NCBI GenBank assembly: GCA_016235425.1
Contig: JACRLC010000017.1
Coordinates: 1-64,000 of the forward strand
From: Chloroflexota bacterium
Lineage (GTDB): Bacteria; Chloroflexota; Anaerolineae; Anaerolineales; Villigracilaceae
Direction of reading: 5' to 3'
DNA length: 64,000 nucleotides
Both the position numbers and the translations under genes were made by a program. A model generated the notes under the pieces. The model was not told the origin of the DNA and searched no databases. It saw only the letters and a list, made by a program, of their open reading frames with translations. Each line of letters starts with the position of its first letter. Positions within the stretch are counted from its first letter, which is position 1. Below, piece by piece: positions 4,148 to 4,852 of the stretch.

Positions 4148-4183
4148 AAGACCTCCGGTGTACACCGGAGGTCTTCGTTTTTT
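4148..4183 (+). terminator. Intrinsic terminator after the MFS gene
   Basis: AAGACCTCCGGTG pairs perfectly with CACCGGAGGTCTT (13 bp, two-base loop) and is followed by CGTTTTTT. It separates two convergent genes. Confidence 0.9.
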
Positions 4184-4192
4184 CTGGTATTT

Positions 4193-4735
4193 TTATTGGA
4201 TGTGTTGAGAAAACTCCGCTTCCAAATCTGCCTGCTGGACATAACCAACCCACTTTTTCAGGACATTACCGCTTGCATCCAACAGGTAAAGTTCGGGCTG
4301 ATAATAGAAACCGAGGGCACGCTGGAATTCGCCTGTGCGGGGATCGTCGGCATCGAGGTAGCTGAATTTGATCTTTCCAAAATATTGCGCTTCAAGCCCA
4401 TGAACCATGGGCGCCATGGCGCGGCAGGTGCCTCAGGTGAAGCGGAAGAATTCGACGAGTTGCAGACCACCGGATGCGAGACTAACCGTCGTTGGGTCGG
4501 TGGCTTCGAGATCGGGGCCGCGTGAGGTGGCAATAGGTTGGACTTCGGCCAGCGCGGTCGGAGCGGCGATTGTTTCCACGGGCGCGAGCGTGGGCGGCAG
4601 AGTCGCTGTCGGCGTAGCGGGTTCGGGGGAAAATGCCTCGGCCGGCGCGTTTGACGGAGTCACTGCCGGGGCGCAGGCAGATGCCAGTAAAACGGCGAGC
4701 AGGATAACAGTCCGGAATTTGAAGCGGGTTTTCAT
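4193..4735 (-). CDS. Thioredoxin-fold lipoprotein, putative selenoprotein with a UxxC active site
   Basis: The frame runs 180 codons if the TGA at 4433-4435 (codon 101) is decoded. Residues 1-21 form a lipoprotein signal ending in the lipobox LLASAC, then comes a Thr/Pro-rich linker. The thioredoxin-fold part is VEFFRFT-U-GTCRAMAPM, with the TGA exactly at the first Cys of the CxxC site and the second Cys (104) kept. Downstream, YLDADDP and the cis-Pro region YYQPELYLLD are intact. Reading both sides in one frame gives a continuous thioredoxin-like domain to the stop at 4193. A 7-bp hairpin with a G-starting loop sits at bSECIS distance after the TGA. Likely role: extracytoplasmic thiol/disulfide exchange. 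Alternative: a pseudogene with a Cys-to-stop mutation. No SelA/B/C/D genes lie in the window. Confidence 0.7.
4396..4412 (-). promoter_or_regulatory. Candidate bacterial SECIS hairpin
   Basis: On the minus strand GCCCATG-GTT-CATGGGC forms a perfect 7-bp stem. The apical loop starts with G at the 28th base after the TGA codon. Known bacterial SECIS elements have the loop about 16-37 nt after UGA, with a G among the first two loop bases. Both conditions are met. The loop of only three bases is at the short end. Confidence 0.55.
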
Positions 4736-4852
4736 CTTGTCCTCACAATAAGGTGGCTTGTGAGTCAGACAACTTGTTTTTAAACAGTCTTACACATTCT
4801 CATCCTTTTCTAAGTAGGGAAAATCGTCACATCCAAAAACGGACGCTTCACT

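Follow-up and report, generated by a model that had tools for sequence, protein, structure and literature searches.

A thioredoxin-like lipoprotein gene apparently broken by TGA in an Anaerolineae bacterium very probably encodes a selenoprotein

The window analysed here, that is the whole stretch of 64,000 nucleotides at positions 1 to 64,000 of contig JACRLC010000017.1 (Chloroflexota bacterium, assembly GCA_016235425.1), carries on its minus strand a gene of 180 codons plus a TAA stop codon that runs from 4735 down to 4193. When TGA is translated as selenocysteine (Sec), the product reads MKTRFKFRTVILLAVLLASAC...LVEFFRFT-U-GTC-RAMAPMVHGLE...YYQPELYLLD..., and the sole in-frame TGA is codon 101 (positions 4433-4435, minus strand), the first residue of the motif U-G-T-C as judged from translation and homologue alignment. 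A sequence-only reading of the same DNA had given the coordinates 4193-4735 with no strand and had described one 180-codon frame interrupted only by a TGA at the first redox position; the coordinates are correct, the strand is minus and translation confirms the frame. On the plus strand, frame 1 of the same span contains two TGAs and one TAA, and a search of the window's own genome recovered the gene with one TGA.

Several features can be placed along the gene, all on the minus strand. A Shine-Dalgarno-like GAGGA, named by inspection, lies immediately 5′ of the ATG (4740..4744). It is followed by a signal peptide with a lipobox (LASA-C) and a predicted lipid-anchored Cys 21 (4673..4735), a Pro/Ala/Thr-rich linker that lacks predicted secondary structure (4496..4672; block means of pLDDT 63-83 over residues 21-80) and a thioredoxin domain comprising residues 81-180 (4196..4495; block means of pLDDT 93-98). 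Within the domain are the TGA and the putative resolving Cys 104 (4424..4426), identified by translation and alignment and itself replaced by TGA in five relatives, and then a candidate bSECIS hairpin, recognized by folding and covariation, with a 7-bp stem (4396..4412) and the loop GUU at 4403-4405. Beyond the gene, an inverted repeat between two convergent genes (4148..4175) is a probable shared terminator; it came from a repeat search of the plus strand only, in which one such repeat was found against 1.3 expected by shuffling. Near the start of the window, positions 26-118 match the group II intron family RF00029 (Rfam, 48.2 bits against a cut-off of 40).

The protein is a thioredoxin by domain and by fold. 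PF00085 (Thioredoxin) matches residues 90-174 with 35.2 bits against a cut-off of 23.5, and this is the only cut-off passed: no NCBIfam cut-off is reached by the window protein, which scores 33.9 bits against 96.8 for the TrxA equivalog TIGR01068 and 28.6 against 123.15 for the curated dsbE model. Structure prediction gives a domain of high confidence at about residues 81-180, and the N-terminal stretch before it has no predicted secondary structure. Thioredoxins dominate the 50 best rows of a Foldseek search, and comparison of the predicted model with thioredoxin 7c3f_C gave a Z-score of 16.2 over 104 residues; the thioredoxin fold proposed from the letters is borne out by both profile and predicted structure. 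The second Cys and the cis-Pro region had likewise been described as intact; a 60-row alignment, in which U was written as C, shows no variation at redox position 1 or at Cys 104 and almost none at the cis-Pro P147. The features expected of a bacterial lipoprotein, a positively charged n-region and the lipobox LASA followed by Cys 21, are predicted at the N-terminus. Among 115 distinct upstream stretches, the lipobox pattern recurs in 110, three of the other five being cut by the locus edge; this recurrence lends support to anchoring at the surface as a prediction.

Relatives of the gene were collected in two sets. A search of 396 genomes of the class gave a list in which the best 43 matches have exactly one in-frame TGA each. 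The first set consists of 66 loci from two genome collections (30 and 36), 56 of them distinct by the last 100 residues, and 65 of the 66 have TGA at the codon aligned with codon 101. In the remaining locus, L086, a run of Ns breaks the gene and the same TGA stands in the readable 5′ piece; L086 comes from a public contig on which N runs interrupt the gene and a piece of it is repeated on either side of the gap, probably a scaffolding artefact. The second set comprises 60 further, more distant matches from the class-genome search list. After removal of identical sequences there are 115 distinct proteins, of which 98 have UxxC, five UxxU and 12 CxxC; two of the last (L134 and L141) are ordinary thioredoxins. 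L086 was dropped from the alignments and duplicates between collections from the distinct counts; L134 and L141 were left out of the selA, lipobox and codon-coupling counts and kept among the 115 and in the 12-row Cys set used for the hairpin. Thus, the relatives have TGA, or in a minority Cys, exactly at the codon aligned with codon 101, and unrelated stops elsewhere in the gene were not found among the family.

Names are attached to 36 loci of the first set: Anaerolineae and its subgroups, Chloroflexi or Chloroflexota, and one Brevefilum, which we take to belong to Anaerolineae. These names agree with the assignment to Chloroflexota that had been made from sequence. The lipoprotein family is common within the class and was seen twice outside it. 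When 400 genomes of the phylum were searched with a profile, the listed matches outside the class reached no better than 1.5e-24. Two of these, L197 (UPVC) and L199 (UPSC), each from a different genome, are lipoprotein-like, have Sec and carry the same hairpin, and because of them the family reaches beyond the class; the idea that the listed matches outside the class are general thioredoxins only was therefore rejected. A third TGA-bearing listed match checked there, L198, is an ordinary CGPC thioredoxin. A search of plasmids gave no match.

Conservation in the relatives bears on the possibility that the TGA is a regulatory leaky stop, such that one of the main products would be a lipoprotein of 100 residues, the complete protein being made only with selenium. 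Sec insertion is generally inefficient, and a signal peptide with its linker could form a stable short lipoprotein. However, alignment A3 has 12 positions that do not vary or hardly vary, and 10 of them lie C-terminal of residue 101; the rows of A3 except the first were trimmed around the domain, so that the linker is outside the comparison. Cys forms without the stop also exist. We consider such a regulatory role very unlikely. The gene appears to be broken at its TGA but is almost certainly intact, the codon being very probably read as selenocysteine.

The hairpin of the window sequence, taken by itself, says little. Its stem, GCCCAUG-GUU-CAUGGGC, has 7 bp and a folding energy of -9.9 kcal/mol; it starts 20 nt, and its loop 27 nt, 3′ of the UGA. 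In the available text of a 2026 inventory of prokaryotic selenoproteins, a bSECIS element is given a loop of 3-9 nt, a stem of 4-16 bp, a distance of 16-37 nt from the UGA, a minimum free energy of -7.5 or lower and a G within the first two loop positions (PMC13188914). The hairpin lies within all these limits (loop of 3 nt, stem of 7 bp, GUU, 27 nt, -9.9 kcal/mol). A hairpin with the required stem, loop and spacing is present in all 103 distinct Sec sequences, and -7.5 is reached over nt 19-45 in 88 of them. Hairpins scoring at least as well occur in 2.6% of 12,522 in-frame stretches (29 ORFs of more than 300 codons) and in 9.1% of 20,000 synonymous recodings, and the fold of 60 nt of the window sequence is not unusual (z = -0.62). 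The stem alone is no better than chance and is weak evidence, and the hairpin was rejected as a stand-alone proof since chance hairpins are so common.

It is the comparison among relatives that gives the hairpin its weight. In a gap-free alignment (A1) of 45 nt from 88 distinct Sec sequences, RNAalifold finds the same six pairs. Pairing is observed in 96.8% of cells against 85.3% in shuffled alignments, and it falls to 12-48% (at most 47.9%) when the partner is slid. Both sides change in five of the six pairs, and the number of double-changed cells is 74 against a shuffled mean of 17.8. On four measures (pairing percentage, covariation score, further pair types and double-changed cells) none of 500 shuffles comes up to the observed value. 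A fifth measure is unremarkable: 55 of the 500 shuffles reach five pairs in which a double change occurs. There are 17 different stem sequences among the Sec forms, whose relatedness inflates the covariation counts. In the loop, G31 and U32 are invariant among the 88 sequences, and the published pattern, as far as the available part of the inventory gives it, is G followed by G or U (PMC13188914). Thus, the hairpin noted from the single sequence both fits the published bSECIS constraints and covaries in the family.

The Cys forms provide a counterpart. In the 12 Cys sequences, including the two ordinary thioredoxins, the helix is formed in 58.3% of cells. Two Cys forms, L124 and L128, retain all five core pairs and the other ten one to four; the complete hairpin core hints at a possible Sec ancestry for L124 and L128 only. 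Codons 110 and 112 are complementary in 88 of 88 Sec sequences as against five of ten Cys sequences; codon 110 specifies Met, Ile, Val, Thr, Ala or Ser, and codon 112 His, Asn, Asp, Arg, Ser and others. This coupling makes the family an unusually clear example from nature of protein sequence being held in check by a recoding hairpin.

A single sequence of this kind would look identical if the TGA had arisen in a thioredoxin gene of the Cys type by ordinary nonsense mutation or were due to a sequencing error, and comparable hairpins are not rare by chance. Against this stand 103 distinct relatives from many genera that have TGA at the codon (98 UxxC and five UxxU of 115) and a hairpin that covaries. 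Since the TGA is conserved, this explanation is refuted for the family, and for the window gene it is hardly credible. At the level of sequence, the joint conservation of TGA and hairpin across the relatives, with covariation, is far beyond chance.

The genome is equipped to decode UGA as Sec. The assembly (5.0 Mb, 109 contigs, 99.57% complete) encodes a tRNA-Sec with the anticodon UCA (70 bits, above the Rfam cut-off), SelB (332.8 bits), SelA (546.8 bits) and SelD (353 bits). The gene for SelD has its own catalytic in-frame TGA, in the motif GUASK, with a 7-bp hairpin of loop GUU 33 nt away. All four components for which a search of the same genome had been proposed (selA, selB, selD and tRNA-Sec) are therefore present. 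Another thioredoxin-like frame with TGA (UIAC) is found in the same genome (L175:1468-1947, minus strand, contig C100); by inspection it has N-terminal hydrophobic stretches, and its best hairpin is short (CGUC-GUU-GACG). That UGA is an ordinary sense codon for Trp, Gly or Cys, read independently of selenium, would also leave the frame open, but it is scarcely conceivable given that TGA ends 16 of the window's 44 non-overlapping ORFs with 200 codons or more, which are putative genes, and terminates 17 of 66 family reading frames, and that the UCA tRNA is typed as tRNA-Sec and accompanied by SelA, SelB and SelD.

The occurrence of Sec or Cys can be compared with that of the Sec machinery in other genomes. 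SelA is above the cut-off in 315 of the 396 class genomes. In a table with one row per genome and the two ordinary thioredoxins dropped, the 80 genomes divide into 68 with Sec and selA, four with Sec and no selA, one with Cys and selA and seven with Cys and no selA; for genomes at least 90% complete the respective numbers are 61, 1, 1 and 7. A recheck of ten genomes, including all eight with Cys, agrees with the table. Five of the Cys genomes have no SelA match and two have weak ones only (G156 and G238, 19.4 and 39 bits); G232, with a full selA, is the one exception. As for the Sec genomes that count as lacking selA, G354 and G047 have an N-terminal piece of SelA at a contig end, no SelA match was obtained in G315 (78% complete), and G248 (91% complete, 570 contigs) has only a weak match that looks unrelated. 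Fisher's test with relatedness ignored gives p = 5e-8, and independent pairs on well-supported branches are 3 to 0 for the link with selA, too few for significance. The tree, which is unrooted and poorly resolved, requires at least eight changes between U and C; as it is unrooted, no direction of change is claimed. Judging from gene content, the identity of the residue follows the presence of the Sec machinery, and of this too the family is an unusually clear example. A separate observation concerns genus g136, where SelA matches as two model pieces (L181/L186 and L182/L185) within one frame of 528-542 codons, which seems to have an insert of roughly 30 residues following model position 244-245; a split selA was rejected in favour of one open frame with an insert.

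In five members (L108, L121, L125, L137 and L144) the thioredoxin-type domain is UxxU, each of its two redox positions being encoded by TGA. In alignment A1 their hairpin loop lies 26-27 nt past the first UGA and 17-18 nt past the second, both inside the published range of 16-37 nt, so that one hairpin could serve both UGAs. Apart from these, two proteins of 552-560 residues (L195:737-2416, minus strand; L196:389-2044, plus strand) have a C-terminal PF00085 thioredoxin domain with WUEAC, the Sec domain being fused to a glucose/sorbosone dehydrogenase domain (PF07995, 8e-43, scored for L195 only).

Neighbouring genes give little indication of a partner. Clustering covered 57 near-relative loci with flanks of up to 2 kb and 20 distant loci with about 6 kb where the contig allowed. 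A divergent aldehyde dehydrogenase adjoins the gene in 33 of the 57 and a convergent MFS-type protein in 14; in the distant set no gene besides that of the family recurs in more than five of the 20 loci. No conserved operon partner was found among the 57 and 20 loci. Three matches of the DsbD_TM/CcdA-like type are above the cut-off in the genome.

Taken with the UxxC motif, the fold and the predicted export as a lipoprotein suggest that the protein is a thiol-disulfide oxidoreductase working outside the cytoplasm. An outline of its synthesis and action may be proposed as follows. UGA 101 would be decoded by SelB and tRNA-Sec (UCA), with the hairpin 20 nt downstream as a guide. The product would be exported by its signal peptide and lipidated at Cys 21, and the flexible linker is predicted to tether the domain on the outer side of the membrane. 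By analogy with the thioredoxin family, Sec 101 would attack through its selenol, with Cys 104 as the resolving thiol, and the protein may serve as a reductase or isomerase for extracytoplasmic disulfides or sulfur oxidised in other ways. Electrons would come most plausibly through a membrane protein of the CcdA/DsbD type, for which, by analogy only, the three matches in the genome are candidates. We regard it as very probable that the product is a lipid-anchored selenoprotein of thioredoxin type located outside the cytoplasm, and that UGA 101 is read as Sec by means of the hairpin.

How does such a protein relate to known ones? TlpA, ResA and DsbE are exported thioredoxin-fold reductases, to whose type family members give weak profile matches; they have Cys, whereas the window protein has Sec and is below the cut-off for dsbE. 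Among selenoprotein-named models, TsoB has putative matches in 20 and SaoT in one of the 60 aligned members. The available text of the 2026 inventory lists Trx (PF00085) with UxxC (PMC13188914), and UxxC thioredoxins also appear in another inventory, as far as its available text goes (PMC9312934). The inventory's Trx shares with the window protein the thioredoxin family, UxxC and UGA with a bSECIS; its row stands for UxxC in general, whereas the clade of the window protein has a predicted lipoprotein form, a long linker and some UxxU members (PMC13188914). A thiol:disulfide interchange protein (PF13098) and a DsbG-like protein in the same source are also UxxC thiol-disulfide oxidoreductase selenoproteins, but they belong to other domain models, and the window protein passes the PF00085 cut-off only (PMC13188914). 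In the available tables of both inventories UxxU is listed for Prx-like thiol:disulfide oxidoreductases as well as a handful of further entries and is absent from the thioredoxin row (PMC13188914, PMC9312934); 'Chloroflex' and 'Anaerolin' have no occurrence in their main texts. An ocean survey, in the portion available, describes Trx-like 1 to 3, likewise UxxC and thioredoxin-like, and notes UxxU in its Prx-like 2 family (PMC2398784). Cys far outnumbers Sec in its Trx-like 1 (7,880 to 321), whereas the window family is mostly Sec; 'Chloroflex' and 'lipoprotein' do not occur in its main text (PMC2398784). According to the accessible part of a 2006 survey, Sec-to-Cys changes are few and fall in four families, some Cys forms keep remnant hairpins and Chloroflexi account for three selenoproteins (PMC1794560). 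UxxC thioredoxin-like selenoproteins are thus already known, and the mostly-Sec lipoprotein subfamily was not found named or described in our literature searches.

A wider reading can be put forward tentatively, with slightly less than even confidence: the outward-facing thioredoxin of these bacteria may be a Sec protein by default, Sec being the older state and Cys having arisen repeatedly after loss of selA, while the hairpin would have dictated amino-acid changes adjacent to the active site and served both UGAs of the UxxU forms. If true, the greater age of Sec would contradict the reported trend that thiol oxidoreductases change from Cys to Sec and rarely back. As automatic annotation would tend to cut such a gene at its TGA, many annotations probably lack the protein or have it in truncated form. 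It would be a redox protein widespread in a common environmental class, and selenium supply is a plausible determinant of the redox chemistry of the envelope in these bacteria.
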